A stretch of 64,000 nt of DNA from the NCBI RefSeq assembly GCF_045679555.1, contig NC_092091.1, positions 77,122,461 to 77,186,460 on the forward strand, given 5' to 3'. Source of the DNA: Salvelinus alpinus (Eukaryota; Chordata; Actinopteri; Salmoniformes; Salmonidae). The translations under genes were made by a program, and so were the position numbers. The first letter of the stretch is position 1, and every line of letters begins with the position of its first letter. This document shows positions 1,458 to 55,643 of this stretch, one piece after another. The notes beneath the pieces were generated by a model. That model had not been told where the DNA came from, made no database searches, and saw nothing but the letters and a program-made list of their open reading frames with translations.

Positions 1458-1459
1458 TA

Positions 1460-1715
1460 TATACACCTGCAGCACCTCACCTTTAAGAACGACAAGGTAA
1501 TATATATACACCTGCAGCACCTCACCTTTAAGAACGACAAGGTAATATATATACACCTGCAGCACCTCACCTTTAAGAACGACAAGGTAATATATATACA
1601 CCTGCAGCACCTCACCTTTAAGAACGACAAGGTAATATATATACACCTGCAGCACCTGCGACCTATATATATATATATATATCTCACCTTTTTAAGAATG
1701 ACAAGGCAATATGTG
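1460..1715 (+). repeat. 45-bp minisatellite made of a ctnnd1 exon end plus donor site
   Basis: Four and a half copies of a 45-bp unit (cctgcag starts at 1466, 1511, 1556, 1601, 1646), then a decayed copy at 1681-1715. Each unit contains about 31 bases that translate as LQHLTFKNDK, followed directly by gtaatatata. Human p120-catenin has YLQHLCYRNDK immediately before VKTDV, and the first ctnnd1 exon in this window begins with VKTDV in phase 0, so the repeat is the end of the preceding exon with its donor. No copy has the rest of that exon, so these are duplicates; the functional exon probably lies left of the window. Confidence 0.8.
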
Positions 1716-5342: not shown

Positions 5343-5602
5343 AGCTTTACAGCCCCTTGCATATCTATCTCAATTACCTCGTACCCCTGCACATCCACTC
5401 TGTACTGGTACCCCGTGTATATAGCCAAGTTATCATTACTCATTATGTATTTATATACTTTTGTTATTAAGTGTTATTACTTGTCTATAATTTTTTCTAT
5501 TTTCTTTCTCTCTGCATTGTTGAAGGGCCCGTAAGTAAGCATTTCACTGTTAGTCCACACTTGTTGTTTACGAAGCGTGTGACAAATAAAATTAGATTTG
5601 AT
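5343..5602 (+). mobile_element. LINE 3'-end fragment
   Basis: Sequence running from the cttgcatatctatctc region through ctctctgcattgttgaaggg to the tail gtgacaaataaaattagatt. I recognise this as the 3' end of a dispersed teleost non-LTR element. The reverse complement of the same type of tail is seen at about 21058 (end of the full LINE) and 32036. It is 5' truncated, as usual for target-primed retrotransposition. Confidence 0.6.
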
Positions 5603-5921: not shown

Positions 5922-8900
5922 GTGAAGACAGATGTCCGTCGTATGAAAGGTATCCCATCCCTGGTGTCCATGTTAGACAACCCTAAGAAGGAGGTCCACC
6001 ACGCCGCCTGCGGAGCGCTCAAAAACATCTCTTACGGACGAGACGCTGACAATAAGATCGCCATCAAGAACTGTGATGGAGTACCGGCCCTGGTCAGACT
6101 GCTGAGGAAGACCAGAGACCAGGACCTGACTGATACTATCACAGGTAATACTACTGCGGTTACGACTAGTGTACTACTGCTGTTACTACTAGTGTACTAC
6201 TGCTGTTACTACTAGTGTACTACTGCTGTTACTACTAGTGTACTACTGCTGTTACTACTAGTGTACTACTGCTGTTACTACTAGTGTACTACTGCTGTTA
6301 CTACTAGTGTACTACTGCTGTTACGACTAGTGTACTACTGCGGTTACGACTAGTGTACTACTGCGGTTACGACTAGTGTACTACTGCGGTTACGACTAGT
6401 GTACTACTGCGGTTACGACTAGTGTACTACTGCGGTTACGACTAGTGTACTACTGCGGTTACGACTAGTGTACTACTGCGGTTACGACTAGTGTACTACT
6501 GCGGTTACGACTAGTGTACTACTGCGGTTACGACTAGTGTACTACTGCGGTTACGACTGATGGTACTACTGCGGTTACGACTGATGGTACTACTGCGGTT
6601 ACGACTGATGGTACTACTGCGGTTACGACTGATGGTACTACTAGTGTACTACTGCGGTAAGTGGGAAACGGTAGTGTGTGGTGATGATGATGATCCGTCA
6701 CCCTCTTCCTCAGGCACGCTGTGGAACCTGTCGTCTCACGACTCAGTGAAGATGGAGATCGTTGACCACGCCCTGCACGCCCTCTCAGACGAGGTGATGG
6801 TAGCTCACTCGGGCTGGGAGAGAGGGAACGAGGCAGGAGGAGAGGAGAACCTCAAACCACGACACCTGGAGTGGGAGACGTCCCTCACCAACACAGCTGG
6901 CTGCCTGAGGTACGGAGAGGGAGCGAGAGAGAGAGAGAGGGATGGATTGTACAGGGAGAGGAAAAAGAGGAGGGTGATATGGCCATAATATCATATCACA
7001 ATATGTTTCTCATTTTTTACGGTATTTTAAAGTTTCTGAATAATAAAAGTTGTAAATATGTTTTATGCTTCAACATTGACTGTAGAATTGCAACAAATGA
7101 ATTCTTAATGATTTTATTGGTCTTTTTCCATTCTGATGGTTTTATACTCAACCAAGCTAGGACCAAACTGACTGTGATGTCGTCCAATTTGTCAAACTTT
7201 TCATTTAACTTAGCGCTGTATCAAAATATCATGATAGACCGTATTGTAAAAATACATACCAGTATTGAAGATGTATCAGCCTGCCCTAAAACAGTCATGT
7301 ATAGTCCATGAGTGACTGGTCTTGCAGTGCTGTGTGTGTGTATGTGCATGTCTGTTGGTCTTGCAGTGCTGTGTGTGTATGTACATGTCTGTACAGGTGT
7401 GCCTGAGGAATTCCCAGAAGGTAGGGCAGAGTGGGAATGTGCTGTGTTCTCCAGTGGGTGTGTCTGTCTCTGTTAAAGGCAGGCTACAACACAATGACTT
7501 GCCCAGTAACCTAATCTACGATCTCACTGTCTCCTCACTAGACTGGAGTTTAACAAACACAGGTTGCGTCCTAAATGGTCCCCTATCCCCTATATGGGCA
7601 TCCCTAACATTAGTGCACCACATAGAGAATAGGGTGCTTTTTGGGACGTGACCACACTCTTTCAGTCTCTGAAAGCAACACACTGACATAGGACCACTCA
7701 GTGTTTACCTACTAATGGTTGTGTTGTGTGCTGGAATCCTATTGTGGCCATTGATTGTAGCCACTCTCATTCCTCTCTCCCTCACTCCCTCTCTCTCTGC
7801 CCATTTTATTCTGTCCCCCTCTGTTTCTGTATTGCTTGTTGTTTTTGCTTTCTCACACACCCCTTCTCTCCCTCTCCTCCCCCCTCTCTCTCCCGCACTC
7901 TCTAAAACAGGAACGTGAGCTCAGAGCGCAGTGAGGCCAGGAGGAAGCTGAGAGAGTGCACAGGATTGGTCGACTCGCTCATGTACATCGTCCAATCACA
8001 GATCAACCTGAAAGACGTGGACAACAAGGTGTGGCCCAAGGCTGTTTTTCTTCCGATCCTGAACTTTGATTGTGTGTCCGCATGTATTTTAATCCTGTTC
8101 TCCTTTTCCTTCCTCTTATCCCTTTCTCTCTCTCGCCCTCCCTCACCCTCTCTCTTTCCCTCCCACACCCTCTCTCTTTCCCTCCCACACCCTCTCTCTC
8201 TGTCTCCAGCTGATAGAGAACAGTATGTGTCTGCTGAGGAATCTGTCCTATCAGGTACTGTTGTAGTTGATATTGTTCTCCTTTCTGTTTCTTTCTACAG
8301 TGTTTCATCCTGCCTTTTTAGTAATGTGTTGTGACCTTTTGAATTGTACTTTAAAGAGATTCTCTGGTACTTCTGTAGACTTTTTAGCCTGTAGTTCTTA
8401 GTGTCGCATGGTATACCCAAACTTCTGTACTTTTTCCAATACCAGCTCATGACAAAGGGTTCGGTACTCGATAAAAATAATATGTTTGGTGCTTCTGTCA
8501 AATGAGTGTCACGTCGTCTACTGATTGAGAGAGGATCGCGTTTGTTTATCAGCGCAGCCGAGGTCCCCTTATGGCGTGAGAGTCCGGTACCTGCTCCACT
8601 TCCCCATGGCTAGCACTAGCCTGTCCTGGGGAAACACTGCATCACCATGGCTAGCACTAGCCTGTCCTGGGGAAACACTGCATCACCATGGCTAGCACTA
8701 GCCTGTCCTGGGGAAACACTGCATCACTGGGAGGCTGGGCTGCATCACCATGGCTAGCACTAGCCTGTCCTGGGGAAACACTGTATCACTGGGAGGCTGC
8801 ATCAACATGGCTAGCACTAGCCTGTCCTGGGGAAACACTGCATCACTGGGAGGCTGCATCACCATGGCTAGCACTAGCCTGTCCTGGGGAAACACTGCAT

Positions 8901-11900
8901 CACTGGGAGGCTGCATCAACATGGCTAGCACTAGCCTGTCCTGGGGAAACGGCTGCATCACCATGTTGCACAGAAGTTAACACTTGAATAAAGCAACACG
9001 GCATGTAGAAACTGTTAATCGCAAAACAATGTCCATTACAGACTAGAACACTTTACAGTGCAAGAAGATACCGGTAGCTTCCAGCTTTGTAGGCTAGTTT
9101 TCCTTGCTAACTTACAGCTGAAGCTAACGTCAATTCACTACCTTAGTACCTTGTTTGTGATAACATGCCTTGAACAAAATCGGACATTTAAAATGTAATG
9201 ATATTGAACTCGAAGATGTGTCTGGATCAGGTGCCATGGTATCGTTTTTTTGCCACAGTATCGTTTTGGTACAGTATTGTTTTGGTACAGTATCGAGTGT
9301 TGTGATACTTAACCTGGTATCTGTATCGAAGTTTAAATTCTGGCATCGTGACAACACTGTTCACAGTTCTGAAAGTAGCGCCAGCGAGCCACAAGTGGTC
9401 CCTGAAAATTGCATACTACGTCACATATGTATAGATATGTGCACAACGTCAGTGCTCTTGCTAGCTGTCACTCAAATTGCGAGGGGCTGAAGCTCATTGG
9501 CTAGAACTTGAAATCCTAGTGGGCTGACCCACATGGGGGACAATGTAGGGATAATGGCGCAGTATAGTTCCCAGAAAAAGTTACTTTCAAACTATGGATT
9601 TCGTGGCTAATTGAGTTAAGACAGTAATTCTGCTCCTAGATTCTGAATGTATGAACAACATGTTGACACATCAGCCCAAAGCCGGAGGGGTAAAGAAAAT
9701 ACTTAGTAGGCACCAAAGTTTCGCAGCATGTGTTTAAATAAGCAATATTATACTATATGATTGTAAACTTGACTTGACCTTAGGTTCACCGGGAGGTGCC
9801 GGGCGCTGAGCGCTACCAGGAAGCCATGTCCCTCAACCAGGGCCCCGCCCCCTCCACTGGAAAGACCAACCGCTTCAGCTCCCGCAGGGGCAAAGGTCAG
9901 TGTGTGGGTGCCTGTCTGTCTTGCCTGTCTGAGAGTGTTTATATTATCTGTCTGTGGAAGGAAGGCAGATGGAGAGTGATGCAATTGTTGACTTTAGTGT
10001 GTGTGAGTGTACACAGTATAGTGACAGTGTAGCAGGAAAGAGAGACAGCAGAGAACCAGTGGTTGGCCTGGGATGTTGAATGCTATTTACCCCCATCCTA
10101 AAGAATGTTCAGTATCACTCCTTAATGTCTGTGTGTCTGATGTCTGTGTGATGGAAATGATTTGTTTCTCTATTTGTGAACAGACATTTTATTTTTGATG
10201 GTTTGTCTTTGTGCTGGCGTGCATGTTGGTGTGTTTTTGCTGCGATAGTTTCTAATCTAATCCTACATTTGATCTATGCTGGTGCTTTGGTGGGAGGAGG
10301 TGTCTTGGTGGCTGGGTCACTGCTGCTGTTCTCGCTTGACTCAAATCATCCTCTCTCCTATCATTTATTCCTCCCTCATTCTGCTGTCCTTCTGTCTGCT
10401 GTGGAACAGATGACTGGTGTTCTAAAGGTAAGCTCTGACTCTCTGACCTCTGCTTGTCTGCTGGTTAGAGCATTAATTAGGACTGGCTAATGATGTCAGT
10501 CTCCTAACTCTATGCATGCATTGTCATGCTCTCTGCCGTCTCCTAGAGGACGGTGTGTGTAAGAGAGGCAGTGTGCAGCATGTGTGTAAGAGAGGCAGTG
10601 TGCAGCAGAGCACCATAGCGGGCAGGGGGTTCTGGAGCACCATAGCGGGCAGGGGGTTCTGGAGCACCATAGCGGGCAGGGGGTTCTGGAGCACCATAGC
10701 GGGCAGAGGGTTCTGGAGCACCATAGCGGGCAGGGGGTTCTAGAGCACCATATCGGGCAGAGGGTTCTAGAGCACCATAGCGGGCAGGGGGTTCTGGAGC
10801 ACCATAGCGGGCAGAGGGTTCTAGAGCACCATAGCGGGCAGAGGGTTCTGGAGCACCATAGCGGGCAGAGGGTTCTAGAGCACCATAGCGGGCAGAGGGT
10901 TCTGGAGCACCATAGCGGGCAGAGGGTTCTGGAGCACCATAGCGGGCAGGGGGTTCTAGAGCACCATAGCGGGCAGAGGGTTCTAGAGCACCATAGCGGG
11001 CAGGGGGTTCTAGAGCACCATAGCGGGCAGGGGGTTCTGGAGCACCATAGCGGGCAGGGGGTTCTGGAGCACCATAGCGGGCAGGGGGTTCTGGAGCACC
11101 ATAGCGGGCAGGGGGTTCTGGAGCACCATAGCGGGCAGAGGGTTCTGGAGCACCATAGCGGGCAGAGGGTTCTGGAGCACCATAGCGGGCAGAGGGTTCT
11201 GGAGCACCTTAGCGGGCAGAGGGTTCTGGAGCACCTTAGCGGGCAGAGGGTTCTGGAGCACCATAGCGGGCAGAGGGTTCTGGAGCACCATAGCGGGCAG
11301 AGGGTTCTGGAGCACCATAACGGGCAGGGGGTTCTAGAGCACTGTAGTGTGGGCAGGGGGTTCTAGAGCACTGTAGTGTGGGCAGGGGGTTCTAGAGCAC
11401 CATAGCGGGCAGGGGGTTCTAGAGCACCGTAGTGTGGGCAGGGGGTTCTAGAGCACCGCAGTGTGGGCAGGGGGTTATTGAGTGTTCTGTGCGTCTGTTT
11501 CTGAGTGTTCTGATGTTCTGTTGCAGGGAGAAATGAGGACGGAGCCGATATGATTGACATTCCAAAGAGGACTACACCTGCCAAAGGTAACACAGTATAA
11601 AGTGGCATCATGTAGACTGGAATATGTTTCTCCTGTCCACTCCTCTGTTGTACTGATCTGAAAGAAGTGACCAGGTGAAGCTAAGCCAGCCTAATGACCT
11701 GCCATCCGAGCTCTATGAGGAGGCCCGAGTTTCTAACTTGGAATTCCAAGTTGGATGACCGTTCAAAGTGACCCCCCCCCCGAGCTCCCAGTTCTCTTGA
11801 ACTCCCTGAAGTCTGAGATTTCTGAATGCAGCAACAGTGCAGGTGTAAATGAGAAGACAAGGAGACGTGTCTACATGTTTCTAACACCTCTCCCTCCGTG

Positions 11901-14900
11901 TCCGTCCAGGTTATGAGTTGTTGTTCCAGCCGGAGGTGGTGCGTGTCTTCATGTTTCTAACACCTCTCCCTCCGTGTCCGTCCAGGTTATGAGTTGTTCC
12001 AGACGGAGGTGGTGCGTGTCTACATGTTTCTAACACCTCTCCCTCCGTGTCCGTCCAGGTTATGAGTTGTTGTTCCAGCCGGAGGTGGTGCGTGTCTACA
12101 TGTTTCTAACACCTCTCCCTCCGTGTCCGTCCAGGTTATGAGTTGTTGTTCCAGCCGGAGGTGGTGCGTGTCTACATGTTTCTAACACCTCTCCCTCCGT
12201 GTCCGTCCAGGTTATGAGTTGTTGTTCCAGACGGAGGTGGTACGTCTCTACATGTTTCTAACACCTCTCCCTCCGTGTCCGTCCAGGTTATGAGTTGTTG
12301 TTCCAGCCGGAGGTGGTGCGTCTCTTCATGTTTCTAACACCTCTCCCTCCGTGTCCGTCCAGGTTATGAGTTGTTGTTCCAGCCGGAGGTGGTGCGTCTC
12401 TTCATGTTTCTAACACCTCTCCCTCCGTGTCCGTCCAGGTTATGAGTTGTTGTTCCAGACGGAGGTGGTGCGTGTCTACATGTATCTAACACCTCTCCCT
12501 CCGTGTCCGTCCAGGTTATGAGTTGTTGTTCCAGCCGGAGGTGGTGCGTGTCTTCATGTTTCTAACACCTCTCCCTCCGTGTCCGTCCAGGTTATGAGTT
12601 GTTGTTCCAGACGGAGGTGGTGGGTGTCTACATGTATCTAACACCTCTCCCTCCGTGTCCGTCCAGGTTATGAGTTGTTGTTCCAGACGGAGGTGGTGCG
12701 TGTCTACATGTATCTAACACCTCTCCCTCCGTGTCCGTCCAGGTTATGAGTTGTTCCAGACGGAGGTGGTACGTGTCTACATGTATCTAACACCTCTCCC
12801 TCCGTGTCCGTCCAGGTTATGAGTTGTTGTTCCAGACGGAGGTGGTGCGTGTCTTCATGTTTCTAACACCTCTCCCTCCGTGTCCGTCCAGGTTATGAGT
12901 TGTTGTTCCAGACGGAGGTGGTGGGTGTCTACATGTATCTAACACCTCTCCCTCCGTGTCCGTCCAGGTTATGAGTTGTTATTCCAGACGGAGGTGGTGG
13001 GTGTCTACATGTATCTAACACCTCTCCCTCCGTGTCCGTCCAGGTTATGAGTTGTTGTTCCAGACGGAGGTGGTGCGTGTCTACATGTATCTAACACCTC
13101 TCCCTCCGTGTCCGTCCAGGTTATGAGTTGTTGTTCCAGACGGAGGTGGTACGTGTCTACATGTTTCTAACACCTCTCCCTCCGTGTCCGTCCAGGTTAT
13201 GAGTTGTTGTTCCAGACGGAGGTGGTGGGTGTCTACATGTATCTAACACCTCTCCCTCCGTGTCCGTCCAGGTTATGAGTTGTTGTTCCAGCCGGAGGTG
13301 GTGCGTGTCTACATGTATCTAACACCTCTCCCTCCGTGTCCGTCCAGGTTATGAGTTGTTGTTCCAGACGGAGGTGGTACGTCTCTACATGTATCTAACA
13401 CCTCTCCCTCCGTGTCCGTCCAGGTTATGAGTTGTTATTCCAGACGGAGGTGGTACGTGTCTACATGTTTCTAACACCTCTCCCTCCGTGTCCGTCCAGG
13501 TTATGAGTTGTTCCAGACGGAGGTGGTGCGTGTCTACATGTATCTAACACCTCTCCCTCCGTGTCCGTCCAGGTTATGAGTTGTTCCAGACGGAGGTGGT
13601 GCGTGTCTACATGTATCTAACACCTCTCCCTCCGTGTCCGTCCAGGTTATGAGTTGTTCCAGACGGAGGTGGTACGTGTCTACATGTTTCTAACACCTCT
13701 CCCTCCGTGTCCGTCCAGGTTATGAGTTGTTCCAGACGGAGGTGGTACGTGTCTACATGTATCTAACACCTCTCCCTCCGTGTCCGTCCAGGTTATGAGT
13801 TGTTGTTCCAGACGGAGGTGGTGCGTGTCTACATGTATCTAACACCTCTCCCTCCGTGTCCGTCCAGGTTATGAGTTGTTCCAGACGGAGGTGGTACGTG
13901 TCTACATGTTTCTAACACCTCTCCCTCCGTGTCCGTCCAGGTTATGAGTTGTTCCAGACGGAGGTGGTACGTGTCTACATGTTTCTAACACCTCTCCCTC
14001 CGTGTCCGTCCAGGTTATGAGTTGTTCCAGACGGAGGTGGTACGTGTCTACATGTATCTAACACCTCTCCCTCCGTGTCCGTCCAGGTTATGAGTTATTC
14101 CAGACGGAGGTGGTGGGTGTCTACATGTATCTAACACCTCTCCCTCCGTGTCCCTCCAGGTTATGAGTTGTTGATCCAGCCGGAGGTGGTGCCTGTCTAC
14201 ATGTATCTAACGCCTCTCCCTCCGTGTCCGTCCAGGTTATGAGTTGTTGTTCCAGACGGAGGTGGTGGGTGTCTTCATGTTTCTAACACCTCTCCCTCCG
14301 TGTCCGTCCAGGTTATGAGTTGTTATTCCAGACGGAGGTGGTGGGTGTCTACATGTTTCTAACACCTCTCCCTCCGTGTCCGTCCAGGTTATGAGTTGTT
14401 GTTCCAGCCGGAGGTGGTGCGTGTCTACATGTATCTAACACCTCTCCCTCCGTGTCCGTCCAGGTTATGAGTTGTTCCAGACGGAGGTGGTGGGTGTCTA
14501 CATGTATCTAACACCTCTCCCTCCATGTCCGTCCAGGTTATGAGTTGTTCCAGACGGAGGTGGTGGGTGTCTACATGTATCTAACACCTCTCCCTCCATG
14601 TCCGTCCAGGTTATGAGTTGTTATTCCAGCCGGAGGTGGTGGGTGTCTACATGTTACTAACACCTCTCCCTCCATGTCCGTCCAGGTTATGAGTTGTTCC
14701 AGACGGAGGTGGTGGGTGTCTACATGTATCTAACACCTCTCCCTCCATGTCCGTCCAGGTTATGAGTTGTTCCAGACGGAGGTGGTGGGTGTCTACATGT
14801 ATCTAACACCTCTCCCTCCATGTCCGTCCAGGTTATGAGTTGTTCCAGACGGAGGTGGTGGGTGTCTACATGTATCTAACACCTCTCCCTCCATGTCCGT

Positions 14901-17900
14901 CCAGGTTATGAGTTGTTCCAGACGGTGGTGCGTGTCTTCATGTTTCTAACACCTCTCCCTCCGTGTCCGTCCAGGTTATGAGTTGTTATTCCAGACGGAG
15001 GTGGTACGTGTCTTCATGTTTCTAACACCTCTCCCTCCGTGTCCGTCCAGGTTATGAGTTGTTGTTCCAGACGGAGGTGGTGCGTGTCTACATGTATCTA
15101 ACACCTCTCCCTCCATGTCCGTCCAGGTTATGAGTTGTTCCAGCCGGAGGTGGTGGGTGTCTACATGTTTCTAACACCTCTCCCTCCGTGTCCGTCCAGG
15201 TTATGAGTTGTTGTTCCAGCCGGAGGTGGTGCGTGTCTACATGTTTCTAACACCTCTCCCTCCATGTCCGTCCAGGTTATGAGTTGTTGTTCCAGACGGA
15301 GGTGGTGCGTGTCTTCATGTTTCTAACACCTCTCCCTCCGTGTCCGTCCAGGTTATGAGTTGTTATTCCAGACGGAGGTGGTACGTGTCTACATGTATCT
15401 AACACCTCTCCCTCCGTGTCCGTCCAGGTTATGAGTTGTTGTTCCAGACGGAGGTGGTGCGTGTCTACATGTTACTAACACCTCTCCCTCCGTGTCCGTC
15501 CAGGTTATGAGTTGTTGTTCCAGACGGAGGTGGTACGTGTCTACATGTATCTAACACCTCTCCCTCCGTGTCCGTCCAGGTTATGAGTTGTTATTCCAGA
15601 CGGAGGTGGTACGTGTCTACATGTATCTAACACCTCTCCCTCCGTGTCCGTCCAGGTTATGAGTTGTTGTTCCAGACGGAGGTGGTGCGTGTCTACATGT
15701 TTCTAACACCTCTCCCTCCGTGTCCGTCCAGGTTATGAGTTGTTATTCCAGACGGAGGTGGTGGGTGTCTACATGTTTCTAACACCTCTCCCTCCGTGTC
15801 CGTCCAGGTTATGAGTTGTTGTTCCAGACGGAGGTGGTGGGTGTCTACATGTTTCTAACACCTCTCCCTCCGTGTCCGTCCAGGTTATGAGTTGTTGTTC
15901 CAGCCGGAGGTGGTGCGTGTCTACATGTATCTAACACCTCTCCCTCCGTGTCCGTCCAGGTTATGAGTTGTTGTTCCAGACGGAGGTGGTACGTCTCTAC
16001 ATGTTTCTAACACCTCTCCCTCCGTGTCCGTCCAGGTTATGAGTTGTTGTTCCAGCCGGAGGTGGTGCGTGTCTACATGTATCTAACACCTCTCCCTCCG
16101 TGTCCGTCCAGGTTATGAGTTGTTGTTCCAGACGGAGGTGGTACGTCTCTACATGTTTCTAACACCTCTCCCTCCGTGTCCGTCCAGGTTATGAGTTGTT
16201 CCAGACGGAGGTGGTGCGTGTCTTCATGTTTCTAACACCTCTCCCTCCGTGTCCGTCCAGGTTATGAGTTGTTATTCCAGACGGAGGTGGTGGGTGTCTA
16301 CATGTTTCTAACACCTCTCCCTCCGTGTCCGTCCAGGTTATGAGTTGTTGTTCCAGACGGAGGTGGTGCGTGTCTTCATGTTACTAACACCTCTCCCTCC
16401 GTGTCCGTCCAGGTTATGAGTTGTTATTCCAGACGGAGGTGGTGCGTGTCTACATGTTACTAACACCTCTCCCTCCGTGTCCGTCCAGGTTATGAGTTGT
16501 TATTCCAGACGGAGGTGGTGGGTGTCTACATGTTTCTAACACCTCTCCCTCCGTGTCCGTCCAGGTTATGAGTTGTTATTCCAGACGGAGGTGGTGCGTG
16601 TCTACATGTATCTAACACCTCTCCCTCCGTGTCCGTCCAGGTTATGAGTTGTTGTTCCAGACGGAGGTGGTGGGTGTCTACATGTATCTAACACCTCTCC
16701 CTCCGTGTCCGTCCAGGTTATGAGTTGTTGTTCCAGACGGAGGTGGTACGTCTCTACATGTTTCTAACACCTCTCCCTCCGTGTCCGTCCAGGTTATGAG
16801 TTGTTGTTCCAGACGGAGGTGGTACGTCTCTACATGTTTCTAACACCTCTCCCTCCGTGTCCGTCCAGGTTATGAGTTGTTATTCCAGACGGAGGTGGTG
16901 CGTGTCTTCATGTTTCTAACACCTCTCCCTCCGTGTCCGTCCAGGTTATGAGTTGTTATTCCAGCCGGAGGTGGTGGGTGTCTACATGTTACTAACACCT
17001 CTCCCTCCGTGTCCGTCCAGGTTATGAGTTGTTATTCCAGACGGAGGTGGTACGTGTCTACATGTTTCTAACACCTCTCCCTCCGTGTCCGTCCAGGTTA
17101 TGAGTTGTTATTCCAGACGGAGGTGGTGCGTGTCTACATGTATCTAACACCTCTCCCTCCGTGTCCGTCCAGGTTATGAGTTGTTATTCCAGACGGAGGT
17201 GGTGGGTGTCTACATGTATCTAACACCTCTCCCTCCGTGTCCGTCCAGGTTATGAGTTGTTATTCCAGACGGAGGTGGTGGGTGTCTACATGTATCTAAC
17301 ACCTCTCCCTCCGTGTCCGTCCAGGTTATGAGTTGTTATTCCAGACGGAGGTGGTGGGTGTCTACATGTTTCTAACACCTCTCCCTCCGTGTCCGTCCAG
17401 GTTATGAGTTGTTGTTCCAGCCGGAGGTGGTGCGTGTCTACATGTTACTAACACCTCTCCCTCCGTGTCCGTCCAGGTTATGAGTTGTTATTCCAGACGG
17501 AGGTGGTACGTCTCTACATGTTTCTAACACCTCTCCCTCCGTGTCCGTCCAGGTTATGAGTTGTTGTTCCAGACGGAGGTGGTGCGTGTCTTCATGTTAC
17601 TAACACCTCTCCCTCCGTGTCCGTCCAGGTTATGAGTTGTTATTCCAGACGGAGGTGGTGGGTGTCTACATGTTTCTAACACCTCTCCCTCCGTGTCCGT
17701 CCAGGTTATGAGTTGTTATTCCAGCCGGAGGTGGTGCGTGTCTTCATGTTTCTAACACCTCTCCCTCCGTGTCCGTCCAGGTTATGAGTTGTTGTTCCAG
17801 ACGGAGGTGGTGCGTGTCTACATGTATCTAACACCTCTCCCTCCGTGTCCGTCCAGGTTATGAGTTGTTGTTCCAGACGGAGGTGGTGGGTGTCTACATG

Positions 17901-20900
17901 TTTCTAACACCTCTCCCTCCGTGTCCGTCCAGGTTATGAGTTGTTATTCCAGACGGAGGTGGTGCGTGTCTTCATGTTTCTAACACCTCTCCCTCCGTGT
18001 CCGTCCAGGTTATGAGTTGTTATTCCAGACGGAGGTGGTGCGTGTCTACATGTATCTAACACCTCTCCCTCCGTGTCCGTCCAGGTTATGAGTTGTTATT
18101 CCAGACGGAGGTGGTGCGTGTCTACATGTCTCTAACACCTCTCCCTCCGTGTCCGTCCAGGTTATGAGTTGTTATTCCAGACGGAGGTGGTGCGTGTCTA
18201 CATGTATCTAACACCTCTCCCTCCGTGTCCGTCCAGGTTATGAGTTGTTATTCCAGACGGAGGTGGTGCGTGTCTACATGTTACTAACACCTCTCCCTCC
18301 GTGTCCGTCCAGGTTATGAGTTGTTGTTCCAGCCGGAGGTGGTACGTCTCTACATGTTTCTAACACCTCTCCCTCCGTGTCCGTCCAGGTTATGAGTTGT
18401 TGTTCCAGACGGAGGTGGTACGTGTCTACATGTTTCTAACACCTCTCCCTCCGTGTCCGTCCAGGTTATGAGTTGTTATTCCAGACGGAGGTGGTGGGTG
18501 TCTACATGTATCTAACACCTCTCCCTCCGTGTCCGTCCAGGTTATGAGTTGTTGTTCCAGACGGAGGTGGTGCGTGTCTTCATGTTTCTAACACCTCTCC
18601 CTCCGTGTCCGTCCAGGTTATGAGTTGTTATTCCAGACGGAGGTGGTGCGTGTCTACATGTTTCTAACACCTCTCCCTCCGTGTCCGTCCAGGTTATGAG
18701 TTGTTATTCCAGACGGAGGTGGTGCGTGTCTTCATGTTTCTAACACCTCTCCCTCCGTGTCCGTCCAGGTTATGAGTTGTTGTTCCAGACGGAGGTGGTG
18801 CGTGTCTACATGTATCTAACACCTCTCCCTCCGTGTCCGTCCAGGTTATGAGTTGTTATTCCAGACGGAGGTGGTGCGTGTCTACATGTATCTAACACCT
18901 CTCCCTCCATGTCCGTCCAGGTTATGAGTTGTTATTCCAGACGGAGGTGGTGCGTGTCTACATGTATCTAACACCTCTCCCTCCGTGTCCGTCCAGGTTA
19001 TGAGTTGTTGTTCCAGACGGAGGTGGTGCGTGTCTACATGTATCTAACACCTCTCCCTCCGTGTCCGTCCAGGTTATGAGTTGTTATTCCAGACGGAGGT
19101 GGTGCGTGTCTACATGTATCTAACACCTCTCCCTCCGTGTCCGTCCAGGTTATGAGTTGTTGTTCCAGACGGAGGTGGTGCGTGTCTACATGTTTCTAAC
19201 ACCTCTCCCTCCGTGTCCGTCCAGGTTATGAGTTGTTGTTCCAGCCGGAGGTGGTGCGTGTCTACACCTCTCTGCTGAAGGAGAGTAAGAACCCCACCGT
19301 GCTGGAAGCCTCCGCCGGAGCCGTGCAGAACCTGTGTGCCGGACGCTGGACCGTGAGTCAACCACACCACCACACACCTTGAGACACCACGGCCTGTTAG
19401 TTTAACACAACCACCACCAGGCCCAACACCACCACACACTTTGAGACACCACAGCTGTTAGTTTAACACAACCACCACCAGGCCCAGCACCACCACACAC
19501 CTTGAGACACCACGGCCTGTTAGTTTAACACAACCACCACCAGGCCCAACACCACCACACACCTTGAGACACCACGGCCTGTTAGTTTAACACAACCACC
19601 ACCAGGCCCAACACCACCACACACCTTGAGACACCACGGCCTGTTAGTTTAATACAACCACCACCAGGCCCAGCACCACCACACACCTTGAGACACCACG
19701 GCCTGTTAGTTTAACACAACCACCACCAGGCCCAACACCACCACACACCTTGAGACACCACGGCCTGTTAGTTTAACACAACCACCACCAGGTCCACACA
19801 TCCGTTTCAGCCTCCTTACTTGACCTCTAACAGAACCCTTTACACCTGGACCGTAAGTCAACCACAGTAGAATCACAAACTCCACCTCCAACCAAGACAC
19901 CACCTTTCTAGACCCTTATTAAACCACAGTCTAGTACTCAAAACAGTCTGTCCACTTCCTGAACACAGATACACTAGAATAATCATTGATCTGTATGTAT
20001 TCCCTCTGTGTCTCAGTATGGGCGGTATATCCGTGCGTTGTTGCGTCAGGAGAAGGGACTTCCCATGATGACAGAGCTGTTGGCCCATGGGAACGACCGG
20101 GTGGTCAGGGCCATGTCTGGAGCTCTGAGGAACCTGGCTATCGACGCTCGCAACAGAGACCTGCTCGGTTAGTACTGTTTCTGTGGAACCTTTTTTTCTC
20201 TCCCTATTTCTCTCGCTCTCCCTCTCTTTCTCCCTCTCTCCCTCTCTTTGAGCCAACCTGTGTTATTAAATACTATAGCTATATATCTCTAACTCTTGTC
20301 TCTGTAGGTAAACATGCAGTTCCCCACCTGGTATCCAACCTGCCTGGTGGGGGTCAGAGCCAGCCTGTGAGGGCTCTGTCAGAGGAGACGGTGGTGTCTG
20401 TACTGAGCACCCTTCATGAGGTACTGGGCTCCAGCCTGGACGCTGCCAAGATCCTCAGAGCCTCGCAGGGCATCGAGAGACTGGTGCTCATCAATAAGGA
20501 CGGGTAAGCTGGTGTGTGTGTGTGACCAATAGAGGTGCATGTGTCTCTATCCATCAGTAAGGATGATGTAGAACAGGAGTGTCAAACTCAATCTCTGGTG
20601 GGCTGAGGGTCTGCAGGGTTTCTCCCTTTGATCAATTAGACACTAATTGAAAGGAAATACCAAAAACCAAAAGAGCCACGTCCCTCCAGAGATGTAGTTG
20701 ACCTCCACCCGGGGTGGACTGGGGGGGGGGGGGGTTGACCTCCACCCGGGGTGGACTGTGGTGGTGTAGTTGAATCACCTCTTTCTGTTTGATGCTGTTT
20801 CTCTTTCTGAGTCCTCTAGTTCTCTCTCCTGATAGGAACCGGTCAGAGCGAGAGGTGCGTGGTGCAGGCCTGATACTACAGTTAGTTTGGGGCTATAAGG

Positions 20901-23900
20901 AGTTGAGGAAGACCCTGGAGAAGGATGGCTGGAAGAAGACAGACTTCATGGTGAACCTCAACCCGCCTAACAGCACCCAGCCCCGGGTCAACGGAGGATA
21001 TGAAGACAGTACGCTGCCGCTCATAGACAGGGGTGAGACAGACAATAACATCTAGCTAAATCAAATTTTATTTGTCACATACACATGGTTAGCAGATGTT
21101 AATGCGAGTGTAGCGAAATGCTTGTGCTTCTAGTTCCGACAATGCAGTAATAACCGACGAGTAATCTAACCTAACAATTTCACAACAACTACCTTATACA
21201 CACAGTGTAAAGGAATGAAGAATATGTACATACAAATATATGAATGAGTGATGGTACAGAACGGCATAGGCACGATGCAGTAGATTGTATCGAGTACAGT
21301 ATATACAGTGGGGAGAACAAGTATTTGATACACTGACGATTTTGCAGGTTTTCCTACTTACAAAGCATGTAGAGGTCTGTAATTTTTATAGGTACACTTC
21401 AACTGTGAGAGACGGAATCTAAAACAAAAATCCAGAAAATCACATTGTATGATTTTTAAGTAATTAATTTGCATTTTATTGCATGACATAACTATTTGAT
21501 CACCTACCAACCAGTAAGAATTCCGGCTCTCACAGACCTGTTAGTTTTTCTTCGTGTTCTCCACTGCACCTGTTTGAACTCGTTACCTGTATAAAAGACA
21601 CCTGTCCACACACTCAATCAAACAGACTCCAACCTTTCCACAATGGCCAAGACCAGAGAGCTGTGTAAGGACATCGGGGATAGAATTGTAGACCTGCACA
21701 AGGCTGGGATGGGCTACAGGACAATAGGCAAGCAGCTTGGTGAGAAGGCAACAACTGTTGGCGCAATTATTAGAAAATGGAAGAAGTTCAAGATGACGGT
21801 CAATCACCCTCGGTCTGAGGCTCCATGAAAGATCTCACCTCGTGGGGCATCAATGATAATGAGGAAGGTGAGGGATCAGCCCAGAACTACACGGCAGGAC
21901 CTGGTCAATGACCTGAAGAGAGCTGGGACCACAGTCTCAAAGAAAACCATTAGTAACACACTACGCCGTCATGGATTAAAATCCTGCAGCGCACGCAAGG
22001 TCCCCCTGCTCAAGCCAGCGCATGTCCAGGCCCGTCTGAAGTTTGCTAATGACCATCTGGATGATCCAGAGGAGGAATGGGAGAAGGTCATGTGGTCTAA
22101 TGAGACAAAAATAGAGCTTTTTGGTCTAAACTCCACTCGCCGTGTTTGGAGGAAGAAGAAGGATGAGTACAACCCCAAGAACACCATCCCAACCGTGAAG
22201 CATGGAGGTGGAAACATCATTCTTTGGGGATGCTTTTCTGCAAAGAGGACAGGACGACTGCACCGTATTGAGGGGAGGATGGATGGGGCCATGTATCGCG
22301 AGATCTTGGCCAACAACCTCCTTCCCTCAGTAAGAGCATTGAAGATGGGTCGTGGCTGGGTCTTCCAGCATGACAACGACCCGAAACACACAGCCAGGGC
22401 AACTAAGGAGTGGCTCCGTAAGAAGCATCTCAAGGTCCTGGAGTGGCCTCGCCAGTCTCCAGACCTGAACCCAATAGAAAATCTTTGGAGGGAGCTGAAA
22501 GTCCGTATTGCCCAGCGACAGCCCCGAAACCTGAAGGATCTGGAGAAGGTCTGTATGGAGGAGTGGGCCAAAATCCCTGCTGCAGTGTGTGCAAACCTGG
22601 TCAAGAACTACAGGAAACGTATTATCACTGTAATTGCAAACAAAGGTTTCTGTACCAAATATTAAGTTCTGCTTTTCTGATGTATCAAATACTTATGTCA
22701 TGCAATAAAATGCAAATCGATTACTTAAAAATCATACAATGTGATTTTCAGGTTTTTTGCTTTAGATTCCGTCTCTCACAGTTGAAGTGTACCTATGATA
22801 AAAAATTACAGACCTCTACATGCTTTGTAAGTAGGAAACACTGTCGATTTTGCAGGTTATCAAATACTTGTTCTCCCCACTGTACATATGAGATGAGTAA
22901 TGTAGGGTATGTAAACATATAAAAGTGGCATTGTTTAAAGTGGCTAGTGATACATTTTTTACATCAATTGTTACATTATTAAAGTGGCTGGAGTTGAGTC
23001 AGTATGTTGGCAGCAGCCACTCAATGTTAGTGGTGGCTGTTTAACAGTCAGATGGCCTTGAGATAGAAGCTATTTTTCAGTCTCTCGGTCCCTGCTTTGA
23101 TGCACCTGTACTGACCTCGCCTTCTGGATGATAGCGGGGTGAACAGGCAGTGGCTCGGGTGGTTGTTGTCCTTGATGATCTTTATGGCCTTCCTGTGACA
23201 TCGGGTGGTGTAGGTGTCCTGGAGGGCAGGTAGTTTGCCCCCGGTGATGCGTTGTGCAGACCTCACTACCCTCTGGAGAGCCTTACGGTTGTGGGCGGAG
23301 CAGTTGCCGTACCAGGCGGTGATACAGCCCGACAGGATGCTCTCGAATGTGCATCTGTAGAAGTTTGAGTGCTTTTGGTGACAAGTCGAATTTCTTCAGC
23401 CTCCTGAGGTTGAAGAGGCGCTGCTGCGCCTTCTTCACCACGCTGTCTGTGTGGGTGGACCATTTCAGTTTGTCCGGGATGTGTACACCGAGGAACTTAA
23501 AACTCTCCACCCTCTCCACTACTGTCCCGTCGATGTGGATAGGGGAGTGCTCCCTCTGCTGTTTCCTGAAGTCCACGATCATCTCCTTTGTTTTGTTGAC
23601 ATTGAATGTGAGGTTATTTTCTTGACACCATACTCCGAGGGCCCTCACCTCCTCCCTGTAGGCCGTCTCGTCGTTGTTGGTAATCAAGCCTACCACTGTA
23701 GTGTCGTCTGCAAACTTGATGATTGAGTTGGAGGCGTGCGTGGGTGAACAGGGAGTACAGGAGAGGGCTCAGAACGCACCCTTGTGGGGCCCCAGTGTTG
23801 AGGATCAGCGGGGTGGAGATGTTGTTACCTACCCTCACCACCTGGGGGGCGGCCCGTCAGGAAGTCCAGTTGCCAGTTGCACAGGGCGGGGTCGAGATCC

Positions 23901-26900
23901 AGGGTCTCGAGCTTGATGACGAGTTTGGAGGGTATTATGGTGTTAAATGCTGAGCTGTAGTCGATGAACAGCATTCTCACATAGGTATTCCTCTTGTCCA
24001 GATGGTTTAGGGCAGTGTGCACTGTGGTTGCAATTGCGTCGTCTGTGGACCTATTGGGGCGGTAAGCAAATTGGAGTGGGTCTAGTGCGTCAGGTAGGGT
24101 GGAGGTGAAATGATCCTTGACTAATCTCTCAAAGCACTTCATGATGACGGAAGTGAGTGCTACGGGGCGGTAGTCGTTTAGCTCAGTTACCTTAGCTTTC
24201 TTGGGAACAGGGACAATGGTGGCCCTCTTGAAGCATGTGGGAACAGCAGACTGGGATAAGGATTGATTGAATATGTCCGTGAACACACCAGCCAGCTGGT
24301 CTGCGCATGCTCTGAGGACGCGGCTGGGGATGCCGTCTGGGCCAGCAGCCTTGCGAGGGTTAACACGTTTACACGATGGCTGCAGTGAAGGAGAGTCCGC
24401 AGGTTTTGGTAGCGGGCCGTGTCAGTGGCACTGTATTGTCCTCAAAGCGGGCAAAGAAGTTGTTTTGTCTGACTGGGAGCGAGACATCCTGGTCCGCGAC
24501 GGGGCTGGTTTTCTTTTTGTAATCCGTGATTGGCTGTAGACCCTGCCACATACCTCTTGTGTCTGAACCGTTGAATTGCGACTCTACTTTGTCTCTATAC
24601 TGACGCTTAGCTTGTTTGATTTCTTTGCGGAGGGAATAGCTACACTGTTTGTATTCGGTCATGTTTCCGATCGCCTTGCCATGATTAAAAGCAGTGGTTC
24701 GCGCTAATGCTGCCATCAATCCACGGTTTCTGGTTTGGGAATGTTTTAATAGTCGCAGTGGGTACGACATCGCCGATGAACTTGCTAATAAACTCGCTCA
24801 CCGAATCAGCGTATTCGTCAATGTTATTGTTTGACGCAATGCAGAACATATCCCAGTCCACGTGATCGAAGCAATCTTGAAGAGTGGAATCAGATTGGTC
24901 GGACCAGCGTTGAACAGACCTGAGCGCGGGAGCTTCCTGTTTTAGTTTCTGTCTGTAGGCGGGGAGCAACAAAATGGAGTCGTGGTCAGCTTTTCCGAAA
25001 GGAGGGCGGGGGAGGGCCTTATATACGTCGCAGAAGTTAGAATAACAATGATCCAGGGTCACTACACACACACACACACACACTGAGGTCTTCACAGGTC
25101 TACCCCAATATCTGTGACCCGACCCGATTTTGGACTCCGGAACTAAGTGTCTGAGTCCAAAATTGTCCCTGGGGTCTGGGTTGGATCCATGTTTGATTGC
25201 CACGGGTCTCTGGTCTATGTAACTACAGCTGATGGACCGGACCCAACCATGGCTCTGGATAGCCTATAGCGGTTGTATTCAGTGGTTTTCTGTGGGACCC
25301 CATTTCCCCCCCCCCCCCCCCCAGAATTTCTCACAACCCACACCCCACCACAAATCTAATGACGCAACCCTGACATTTTGTCCATTTCGATTTTGACGTC
25401 AACCTTTTAATCATGACATTTTCATCTATCTGATAAATACATTTACTCAATAAAATTATAACATTTCTCAAAAGAGTTTGTATGTTCTCCCAATCTGTAC
25501 TCGTAATTAAAACCAAAAAAGCTGTATTTGTTTATGTGGGGACCCCAGTCACCTCACTACAATCCCTGACCACTGGCCTATAACTACACACTATAACCTA
25601 CACACTATAACCTACACACTAGCTGTCTCTCATCCTGTGACTGTGTTTGTTTGTCAGGAGGAGGAGACAAGAGAGACATGATTCCACTAAATGATATGGG
25701 ACCAGGTATGTCTGTACACACAAACACGCCTATACACACACACACACACACACACGCCTACACACACAGTTGTTAACAGGCCTTGGCTGTCTTCCAGATG
25801 CCTACTCCACACTGGACCAGAGGGGGAGGAAGAACACTCTGGACGGAACACTCAAGCCTGCTGACAAAGACACAGCACAGGTACACACACACACACACAG
25901 AGAGCATGTTCTCGCATGTCTCACTAAATACTGTGGCTAGCTTCTTTTCTCACAAACGATTTCTCACTTAACTTCTGACACTAACCCTCTCTCTCTTCCC
26001 CGCTCTCTCTCTTGTCCCCCCTCTCTCTCTCGCCCCCCCCTCTCTCTCTCGTCCCCCCTCTCTCTCTCTCGTCCCCCCTCTCTCTCTCTCGTCCCCCCTC
26101 TCTCTCTCTCGTCCCCCCTCTCATCTGATTCTTCTGGTTTTCATATTGTTCGTTCTGAACACACCCTTCTCTCTTTCTCTTTTTTCTCTCTCTGCTTCAA
26201 CCCACCACCTTTCTTCCCTCTTCTCCCTCCCCTTTTCTCTCTCCTGTCTTCCTTACCACCCTTCTTCTCCCCCTCCTCCCCATTCTTTCTCCCCCCTTCT
26301 CTCTTCCCCCTCTCAGGGAGGGCTGTATGAGGAGAGGCGGGACTCTGTTCCTCTCATGGACTCTTATGACGGTTAGGCCACACCCCCTCACACACTGCAT
26401 GTGAGCGCATGGTATGTGTGTCCACCGACTGAACACCTGCCTCTCTCACTAAACCGCATGGCCTAACTAACCTCTCTCTGTGTGTCCCCCCCATTGTATT
26501 GGTGTTTGTTTCTTGCTCCCTCTGCTGGTGATTTTGTATATTTGATGTAGTATGTTGTTGATCTTGTGTCTTGATGTTCGTTTCGTTTGTTTCATGTCTG
26601 TATACATCTGGAATTCTGTCTTGTGTGTGTTTGATCTCTTTTCAAGCATCTGTGTGTGTTCATGTTGTCTGTGTGCCTCATGTATTGATTGGTAATGTTT
26701 AGGCTGTGACCGATATTGTCTTCACTAGCAGGCTCTGTGTCCTCTCAATCCTCTAAGTTTATACGGCTGGTTTATGAGTTGCACTAGTACAACAAATATT
26801 GCACATGGTAGTAACCCTTCACTCTGTCTCTGTCCTGGTCTTCCCACAGAGAAACTGATAGTGTGCATCACTAGAAGAGAGCAGCCTCTACCGGCCTACT

Positions 26901-36900: not shown

Positions 36901-39900
36901 CAAGTGAATGGTGAGGCCATTCCTAGTCAGAGTCCAAGTCAGGCCAGTACGAATCAGGAAGTTCCACAAGAAGAGGAACCAACGGCTGTCACCCCCAGTT
37001 TCCTACCCCCCTCTGAAACTGATGCTTCTGAACCACAACACCCAGCATGCCCACCAGATGCCTCTCCCGGGAGAGGACTACGTTTCCCAGAACTCCTTTC
37101 ACTGCTGTCTCTAGGAAGCGAAACCCAGCCTTCCCAATCTCCTCCTCCACATTGGGAAGAGCTACGCCTGCCAAAATGTCTCTCACCCTTAAATTCACCA
37201 GAACCCTTACCCCCACCATCTCCGTCGAAACCCTTCCTTAAATCCCCATTCCGGCATCCTGTAACTCCATTCCATAGAATCCCTCAGCTGTCAAAGCTAC
37301 CACGTTGGCTCTGCTGCACTCCGAGAAGACTACAGTTTCCACTCAGCTCCATGATTCACTCTCCACGCTCCCCTGGAAATCTGTGTGAATCTAAAAAATG
37401 CCTTGGGTTGCCGTGGGAATCCAACAACAACTCCGAGCAGATGACTGATGGTCAAGACAAGGCTAGCATTAGCAACAACGCAAGACTGACCGGAAAAGAG
37501 GACGAGGAGGAGAGGAAAAGGAAGAAGGTCGCGACCACCACTGCGGGGCGAAGGCTTGAGAAACCAAAGGCGAAGAGAAGAGAGGGAGATGAAACCTGGA
37601 AGCCCCACAGTAACAGAATCCGTGTGAGGAGAAAGGAGGGTTTGGAGCCCGAGCAGGGGCGAAGGATTGAGAAACCAAAAGCAAAGACCGAGAGGAGACA
37701 GGAGGATGAAACCTGGAGTCACCACAGGAAGATAATCCGTGTGAGGAGAACAGAGGGTTTGAAAGCGGAGCAGGAACAATCAGAGGACAGTGAGACCCCA
37801 GAGCCTCCTCGGAAAAAGAGGAAGCGCAACGTCTCTACAAAGATAGAAGATAGTCCTTTAGTGAGGACAGAAAGGGTGAAACTCAACGACAGAACGAAGA
37901 CTGAGAACGAACAAGTGAAAATAAGCCTCTGCTCTGTCAGTCTGTCAACCAACAATGTCTTAGCGAGCGAAAGATTAGGACGGTACCTTTCCAACACCTC
38001 CACGAAGTCTTTGTCCAGCCTTGGTGAGGAAGCCAACCGACCTCCAGAAGGAACAAAGATGCTGGGAAGGGAAACGGGGAACCCAGTAAGGGTGCTCCGA
38101 GCCAGGGATCGAGATGTGAAACGCCCTCCTAACGTTTGGACCGCAACCAGGAGCAGCTCCCCAGTAAAACTTCACCAAGAAGACAAGCAGTCGAACATGT
38201 CTTCTGAAACTCCCAGTCCCTCCTTCTCCGAATTTCAAGCTCTGGCCAAAGTAGTTGAACTGCTCCAAATCCCACCAACACCACCCCCGAAACGGAAACG
38301 TGGTAGACCCCGTAAGATACGACCAGGAAAAAAACAGGTTTCCCAGGCTGGTGGTTTATTTCCCACCAGTGCCATAACAACAGGCATCCATGATGCGGAA
38401 GCTGTTGAGCACAAAAAGGAAAGAGGAGGAGGAGAACTGCAGGGAAAGGAAAGAGGAGGAGGAAAACTGCAGGGAAAGGAAAGAGGAGGAGGAGGAGAAC
38501 TGCAGGGAAAGGAAAGAGGAGGAGGAGGAGAACTGCAGGGAAAGGAAAGAGGAGGAGGAGGAGAACTGCAGGGAAAGGAAAGAGGAGGAGGAGAACTGCA
38601 GGGAAAGAAAAGAGGAGGAGGAGAACTGCAGGGAAAGGAAAGAGGAGGAGGAGAACTGCAGGGAAAGGAAAGAGGAGGAGGAGAACTGCAGGGAAAGGAA
38701 AGAGGAGGAGGAGAACTGCAGGGAAATGAAAGAGGAGGAGGAGAACTGCAGGGAAAGGAAAGAGGAGGAGGAGAACCGAAGAGAAAGAAGAATGGAAGAG
38801 AACCACAGAGAAAGAAGAATGGAAGAGAACCTCAGGGAAAGGAGAAAGGAGGAGGAGAACCTCAGGGAAAGGAGAAAGGAGGAGGAGAACCTCAGGGAAA
38901 GGAGAAAGGAGGAGGAGAACCTCAGGGAAAGGAGAAAGGAGGAGGAGAACCACAGGTAAAGGAAAAAGGAGGAGGGGAACCACAGGGAAAGGACGATAAG
39001 CGAAAGAAGTGCAGGAAAAGGGTTAAGCTCAGGGAGGGACATGGCAAAGGAGAGAGAGCAGAGTTGTTCCAGAGACTACCTGTGATGTCTAAATCTAAAA
39101 CAGTTGCTCAGAAGCCTAGCTCGCAGACAACTTCGCCCAGTACCCATGAAGAGCAAGTTCCTGCCAACTGTTCAGGGATTGGAACCGGAACCATTCTGCA
39201 ACCCCAGCCGTCTGGTCAGCCACAGAACTCCAGTCCAGAAAGATCTGGAGAGACTGAATCAGACAGAGACCAATTGAGACCCCCTGCTGTCAAGCGGACC
39301 CCCTCCAAGGGTCGGGCACCCACTGTGTCTCTCAAGAAGTTCCAAGAACTCCTGAAGCACAGGCACCAAAAGACGAGGAAGTCCACCAAAAGCAAGGAGA
39401 CAAAAGAAAGTGAAACTGAAGGACAGAAACAAAGTGAAAGAAAATTATTGAAACCCAATGAAAGTGACAGCGGTCAAAATGAATCAAGACTGATGAACAA
39501 AAACATAAGTTCTTCCCAGTCTCTAGAAAGAGAGTCAGCCTTTCGACCAACCGTTGAAAATTACGATCAGACCAACCGAACAGAGAGCGACCATCCAGAG
39601 GAAAAAGATGGAGGACACAACAGCAGCACTTGTGGACAGGAGACAGAGTATCAAGATCTCATCTACAAAGAGACTGAAAGAGAAAACGTTGAGAATAGAG
39701 AACATTTTGAGAACACAGAAAACGTTTTAGTCGGGGAAAACGTGGATGCGTCCGGAGACTTTTTCGAACTCCAAGAGGAGCTGGCTACCTTATCAATGTT
39801 ATCGATGACAAGGACAAAGGAAATGGTGGATCCTCAACGGACCGACAAAGGCAACAAGGAAGGAAGAGATCTGGTTACCAAGAAGAACAGAGAGAGGGAA

Positions 39901-45656: not shown

Positions 45657-55643
<9,987 letters not shown>

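Follow-up and report, generated by a model that had tools for sequence, protein, structure and literature searches.

Tandem repeats that span an exon-intron boundary have been described in amphioxus under the name of mirages, in Adh3, globin genes and TnC, with similar imperfect repeats in PGBD5; as far as the accessible parts of these papers go, the mirage in BflGb6 has 3 copies in one haplotype and 6 in the other, and mirages have been proposed as intron seeds (PMC3087553, PMC3902484). According to the accessible part of another paper, human segmental-duplication genes also hold variable internal tandem repeats at exon-intron boundaries, which can change splicing and form introns (PMC2812944). 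The stretch analysed here, 64,000 nucleotides of Salvelinus alpinus (NC_092091.1, 77,122,461 to 77,186,460, forward strand; hereafter the window), carries in the gene ctnnd1 an array of 98 tandem units, each joining the last bases of an intron to the first bases of the exon that follows it. Its units span the boundary and contain splice signals, as in a mirage. To judge from the same excerpts, the likeness to the amphioxus cases extends to units that join intron end and exon start or the reverse, AG or GT signals, an authentic copy at the edge of the array and local homogenisation. The differences are that BflGb6 has 3 and 6 copies against 98 here, that the present arrays sit in vertebrate genes, several of them in two neighbouring genes and in a duplicated gene pair, that one intron is arrayed at both ends, and that another, missing from two paralogues, consists entirely of an array. 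The human boundary repeats average 30-bp units in 4 copies in the accessible part of that paper (PMC2812944), whereas the arrays here reach 98. In the full-text literature, which largely leaves out subscription journals and was available partly as excerpts, we recognised no such fish or vertebrate array at 98 copies, which is weak evidence of absence. The kind is known from the amphioxus mirages; what is new is the copy number, the occurrence of several arrays in vertebrate genes, and an intron made of an array.

The features on which the argument rests are as follows (a slash in a motif marks the splice junction):

11527 to 11586, forward strand: ctnnd1 exon 5' of the array, with donor AAAG/GTAACA at 11587
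11866 to 19266, forward strand: ctnnd1 array of 98 tandem 76/73/70-bp units, with 97 decoy acceptors and the true one
11866 to 11875, forward strand: copy of the 10-bp direct repeat CGTGTCTACA at the left edge, in the intron; a probable founding breakpoint
19225 to 19352, forward strand: true ctnnd1 exon, 128 nt, ending GRWT, with the acceptor AG ending at 19224 and donor GTGAGT at 19353
19257 to 19266, forward strand: right, exonic copy of CGTGTCTACA, present in the homologous exon of the C7 paralogue and absent from C4
19277 to 19291, forward strand: purine-rich stretch with GAAGGAGAG in the true exon beyond the repeated part, a candidate splicing enhancer

All results concern one assembly, and what we say about splicing and array length is drawn from sequence, reading frames and protein conservation. 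When the exons in the window are joined, the frame stays open and matches PDB 3l6x ("Catenin delta-1", E 5.6e-175) straight through the junction at the array. The arrayed intron runs from 11587 to 19224. Tandem Repeats Finder, run on the window, reports 11866-19266 with period 76, 98.1 copies and 95% match. Each unit contains CTAAC, a pyrimidine tract and CAG, followed by the opening bases of the ctnnd1 exon; CAG/GTTATGAG is present in 98 of 98, with the first exon bases running from 11910 to 19225, and CTAAC is counted 98 times. In a 76-bp unit, 34 bp come from the end of the intron and 42 bp from the start of the exon, the latter corresponding to 19225-19266. Eighty units have 76 bp, 17 have three bases fewer (73 bp) and one has 70 bp, and among them are 52 distinct sequences, with variation in 19 of the 76 columns. 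Chance is no issue as the origin of this pattern. A 33-mer from the core of the unit has 87 exact matches across the 2.37-Gb assembly, every one of them inside the array, and its reversed control has 0, in a search that skips very common words. Tandem acceptors of the NAGNAG type lie a few nucleotides apart and share one branch site, and the array was rejected as a case of it, with acceptors 70-76 nt apart and a CTAAC in each unit.

The upstream exons were joined to each of the 98 acceptors in turn, and the frame was read onward. From all 97 decoys a stop is reached 74, 77 or 80 nt past the junction, and acceptor 98 alone stays open. The earlier note on this DNA, which had assigned the gene to ctnnd1, seen a complete 3' splice site in each unit, and proposed that only the last copy leads into the full exon and that the acceptor one unit upstream soon leads to a stop, is borne out in all of this, with its count of about 97 copies corrected to 98 acceptors (97 decoys and the true one) and one 70-bp unit added. 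It had also treated the acceptors as near-identical, and local sequence can indeed not separate the last copy: the decoys at 12059 and 12135 share its context from -44 to +42 without a single difference. The choice must therefore come from the exon body or the donor, and what is unique to the last acceptor is the downstream exon body together with the donor at 19353.

Other ways of dealing with the decoys were considered and rejected. Reading through the units as coding sequence fails, as a frame entered at any of the 97 decoys meets a stop one unit later. If the 128-nt exon were skipped, the frame would be lost and a stop reached 51 codons further. RNA structure that hides the decoys fails as a discriminator, with z-scores of 0.29 and -0.58 for the unit and -0.62 for the region of the last acceptor. 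Variation among the units (19 of 76 columns) is too slight to reveal selection preserving the decoy signals. Donors here and below were scored roughly, with an approximate matrix and not with MaxEnt. Within the consensus unit the highest-scoring GT is a cryptic donor, GTG/GTGCGT at exon base 30, which reaches 5.9, above the true donor; its use would yield a 29-nt microexon and break the frame, and some units vary at these bases.

The explanation that we find probable is that the array is a minisatellite which arose between the two 10-bp repeats, that the exon-proximal copy is spliced by exon definition, and that errors are degraded. A duplication between the intronic and the exonic repeat would have copied the acceptor signals (branch site, pyrimidine tract and AG) together with the first bases of the exon, and unequal exchange or slippage would then have expanded this unit to 98 copies. 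We infer that ctnnd1 still works because the choice of splice site runs across the exon, so that the downstream donor and the exon body would single out the nearest acceptor, the last of the 98, and that protein is made from this gene copy. The purine-rich stretch, which is without counterpart in the decoys, may help the exon body to mark that acceptor; its longest purine run is 9 (GAAGGAGAG at 19277) against 5 in the unit (GGAGG). Use of a decoy would lead to a premature stop, and the product would be destroyed by nonsense-mediated decay, which is an established pathway; some use of the last few decoys is expected, and would be removed in the same way. If the nearest pair across the intron won, as in intron definition, the wrong site would be chosen in each of the arrays described here, while exon definition, where the pair closest across the exon wins, would choose the right one. 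Exon definition favours the sites closest across the exon, according to the accessible part of a human transcriptome study, which gives the rule for flanking introns both short and long (PMC9225289). A Pro is replaced by Thr in the exon part of 79 of the 98 units, and the terminal unit keeps the Pro, like both paralogues and PDB 3l6x, which is consistent with the last copy being the translated one.

In the two paralogues of this genome, on C4 and C7, the intron at the corresponding position is 67 and 78 nt long with one acceptor, and their 10-kb loci hold no tandem array with a period of at least 20 and at least 4 copies. The array is absent from both, and it is not itself a newly gained intron, an idea rejected since C4 and C7 hold an intron there. 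C4 and C7 differ by a dS of 0.275, which we take to be compatible with the salmonid genome doubling. The copy in the window, on C6, differs from them over three exons by a dS of 0.8-0.9, with dN/dS of 0.08 and 0.09. The length of the array is 98 units plus 10 bp, with CGTGTCTACA at both outer edges, and in the 10-kb locus of C7 this sequence occurs once, inside the homologous exon. A duplication between the two CGTGTCTACA repeats would be the simplest founding event. Units have since been homogenised locally: neighbours differ at 2.72 positions, against 3.18 in random order, and 0 of 2000 permutations were as low. Unit 98 has the same sequence as units 1, 3 and 4, which is no more than suggestive of edge copies that escape homogenisation.

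Several observations count against the explanation by a founding duplication and exon definition, or limit what supports it. The donor at 19353, ACC/GTGAGT, scores 4.9 and is the third lowest among nine ctnnd1 donors (range 4.7-9.0). It had been named as the obvious candidate for defining the exon; the need for information from the downstream exon or donor stands, but the donor alone is not a strong explanation, and with so low a score the exon body therefore probably matters. The last acceptor is not predicted to be more accessible than the others, ranking 66 of 98 for the pyrimidine tract and 86 of 98 for the AG, and the Pro of the terminal unit is also kept by 18 decoys. Alternative 3' sites at least 20 nt apart show an overall upstream preference that exon definition reduces, according to the accessible part of the same study (PMC9225289). 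Both 128 and 204 nt are ordinary lengths for an exon, and a perfect choice of acceptor 98 over 97 is therefore not guaranteed. The low dN/dS of C6 mainly reflects the period that preceded the array, and CGTGTCTACA is absent from the C4 locus, so that it is not fixed in the family.

The 98-copy array is not unique. There are five more exon-boundary arrays in ctnnd1 and unc93b1, and a sixth that is less certain; they include the following, to which a pair from other loci is added:

1458 to 1657, forward strand: ctnnd1 45-bp donor array at the exon end ..LQHLTFKNDK followed by GTAATA, with 4 donors in the window
47109 to 47762, forward strand: unc93b1 donor array, mostly of 58-62-bp units, with 9 intact CATCAG/GTATAC; the true donor is the first, and the exon ends at 47150
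48517 to 51837, forward strand: unc93b1 38-bp donor array at the exon end ..LYNVKHC, TG/GTAAAC; the true donor is the first, and the exon ends at 48538
52035 to 52490, forward strand: unc93b1 54/53-bp acceptor array with 8 CAG/GTGCGG and a diverged first copy; the true acceptor is the last (52460)
L010, 5895 to 7528: 42-bp array with 26 copies of CTACTCAG, the end of which is the presumed acceptor of the start-codon exon of ctnnd1
L053, about 8019 to 9916: C10 CAG/TGGT array with 39 acceptors
L048, 6240 to 6313, reverse complement: C8 CAG/TGGT array with 3 acceptors

The gene unc93b1 was identified by its match to PDB 7c76 (E 8.5e-44), and it was matched at one locus only in the genome. Its 38-bp donor array (73 intact donors by a strict pattern, 79 unit cores) and its 54/53-bp acceptor array are the two ends of one intron (48517-52490). 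In the first donor array the later donors lead to a stop at +31 nt (8/8), and in the 38-bp array to a stop at +44 or +56 (72/72), with the natural first donor open; of the choices in the acceptor array the last six are in frame and the first two stop. Agreement with the human protein is obtained at the three arrayed sites by joining from the first donor in both donor arrays and to the last acceptor in the acceptor array, in each case the exon-proximal site. Each 54-bp acceptor unit keeps the frame and would add 18 amino acids. A minisatellite in the interferon-induced transcript of IFI6/G1P3 reportedly gives multiple splice donor sites, and would thus resemble the donor arrays at 47109-47762 and 48517-51837, but with much shorter units, and with donors rather than the acceptors of the 98-copy array.

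In ctnnd1, three further donors of the 45-bp array lie in L009, the C6 locus just upstream of the window, and the array is split by an insertion (L009:9890 to window 1457) that we take to be Tc1-like; the array probably predates it, because the insertion sits within the array. The less certain 42-bp array in L010 shares only about 4 exon bases with the start-codon exon. An intronic 48-bp array of 14 copies at L009:4286-4955 resembles an internal piece of the next exon (MTRTVIPSVSDNLS) and is without an acceptor AG. The intronic arrays at L010:8125-8747 and L009:7625-8448 have units with branch site, pyrimidines and AG, and hold further decoy acceptors (CTAACTCCCCCCAGGT, 7 exact; CTACTAACCCCTACCAG, 8 exact).

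Another ctnnd1 array lies in L009, where the exon ..LDPYAAQPQ ends at 5454 and the next, VGRMGSALELSG.., begins at 7353. The intron between them, L009:5455-7352, is exactly 25 whole tandem units (24 x 76 + 74 = 1,898 nt), with CAG/GTGGGT in 26 of 26. A unit consists of 44 bp like the start of the following exon and 32 bp with a branch-like TATTAAC (24 counted in the array) and TATTGTCAG; the GT is exon-derived, and the 32 bp, which include the AG, are not exon-like. The spliced frame reads through, and the unspliced frame stops in the first unit. Both paralogues (2/2) have one contiguous exon at this site, ..LDPYAAQPQVGRG.. The intron is best read as an apparent gain by tandem duplication, because it consists of whole repeats only and is missing from the two nearest copies, although it may instead have been lost in the ancestor of C4 and C7. 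Tandem duplication is accepted as a way in which introns are gained; examples come from human, from mouse, from the ancestor of jawed vertebrates (PMC3443670) and from the potato RdRp (PMC4974935), as the accessible parts of these papers have it. The L009 intron resembles the described mechanism in that duplication of an exon segment starting with GT after CAG would provide the GT and AG ends, and in that removal restores the frame of the paralogues; it differs in having 25 tandem units rather than one duplication and 32 bp per unit without exon likeness.

The first rival to exon definition is that splicing is leaky: the decoys would often be used, a high loss to nonsense-mediated decay would be tolerated, and the length of the array would tune the output of ctnnd1. 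We regard this as unlikely, though it deserves to be taken seriously. In its favour, AG and CTAAC are kept in all 97 decoys and each of them gives a premature stop, and the two further ctnnd1 copies, on C4 and C7, could buffer the loss. Buffering by copies is however no general answer, with unc93b1 carrying three arrays at its one matched locus, and amphioxus mirages are reported without disturbance of splicing in the accessible parts of the two papers (PMC3087553, PMC3902484).

Every unit of the 98-copy array starts with GT and ends with AG, and a wrong first splice leaves AAAG/GTTATG; each junction could thus act as an acceptor and then as a donor, with mis-spliced products re-spliced until the last unit is reached. 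Ratchet splice sites are those at which a strong donor is regenerated at the junction. The junction here, CAG/GTTATG, is weak (3.6-3.7, a level reached by 15% of the GTs in the window), and the frame-breaking GTG/GTGCGT (5.9) outscores every other GT of the consensus unit. Such recursive splicing, which had been called conceivable for this array, finds little support at a junction of 3.7, and we think it improbable as the explanation; it is plausible in the L009 array, where CAG/GTGGGT scores 9.5, above all nine scored ctnnd1 donors (maximum 9.0), and the CAG/GTGCGG of unc93b1 has a fair score of 7.6, in the top 1.1% of GTs in the window.

It is also quite doubtful that we are looking at an assembly artefact or an unusual haplotype, with a true copy number far smaller. 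Arrays of this sort are hard to assemble, and the accessible part of one paper mentions a mirage that was aberrantly assembled in the amphioxus draft (PMC3087553), but the 52 distinct units with local order are unlike a collapsed or looped copy, and independent arrays with different units occur in two genes and on C8/C10. That the array is kept for a function, for instance as a sponge for U2AF, SF1 or U2 or as a timer that delays splicing by 7.4 kb, is very improbable: the AG and CTAAC in 97 of 97 decoys would fit it, but with 19 of 76 columns varying recent homogenisation alone predicts intact cores, and two paralogues do without the array.

Beyond the single array, we tentatively suggest, with somewhat more doubt than belief, that a kind of intron factory is running in this vertebrate genome, in which exon-edge minisatellites arise repeatedly, are tolerated, grow to tens or a hundred copies, and in some cases become introns or enlarge them. 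Exon definition would hide the arrays from splicing, as would re-splicing for GT...AG units whose junction is strong. The 98-copy array, the double-ended unc93b1 intron, the intron of 25 units and the C8/C10 pair could then be stages of one process.

Arrays at exon edges were also looked for in 14 loci of 10 kb chosen by ctnnd1 similarity (C4, C7 and 12 others), with 69 matched stretches counted as exons. The exon W/SVYIRAAVRKEKGLP of a duplicated gene pair has acceptor arrays with CAG/TGGT, 3 copies on C8 against 39 on C10, and in the remaining 12 of the 14 loci no array (period at least 20, at least 2.5 copies, score at least 100) touches a matched exon. With thresholds of a period of at least 20 and at least 4 copies, 7,923 of 140,000 bases fall within arrays in the 14 loci, compared with 20,914 of 64,000 for the window, 6,983 of 10,000 in L009, 2,421 of 10,000 in L010 and 3,619 of 10,000 in L011. 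This C6 stretch is rich in arrays, yet exon-edge arrays are not confined to it. Complex arrays span an exon edge in 6 of 17 cases against 1.3-2.1 expected (P 0.001-0.01), in 5 of 16 when the array-made intron is left out (P 0.003-0.03) and in 5 of 20 when four low-complexity arrays are added (P 0.03-0.14); a smaller set gives 4 of 8 and 4 of 12. With a set and definitions chosen post hoc and a partial exon set, this is only suggestive of an enrichment at exon edges.

Laboratory studies of how exons are chosen have classically used duplicated splice sites, and these genes offer a natural test set: an acceptor array of 98 copies, donor arrays with 9 and 73 intact sites, and one intron arrayed at both ends. 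The site that matches the protein is exon-proximal by geometry, and the arrays therefore separate exon definition from intron definition cleanly. The differences between units (52 of 98 distinct) would allow many RNA reads to be assigned to their unit.

Elsewhere in the window, a 30-bp array of 19 copies at 38415-38993, with a unit length that is a multiple of three, lies inside a long open frame that we presume to be btbd18-like. The open frames at 21853-22665 and 23283-25203, 3' of the mapped ctnnd1 exons, are presumably transposase- and reverse transcriptase-like.

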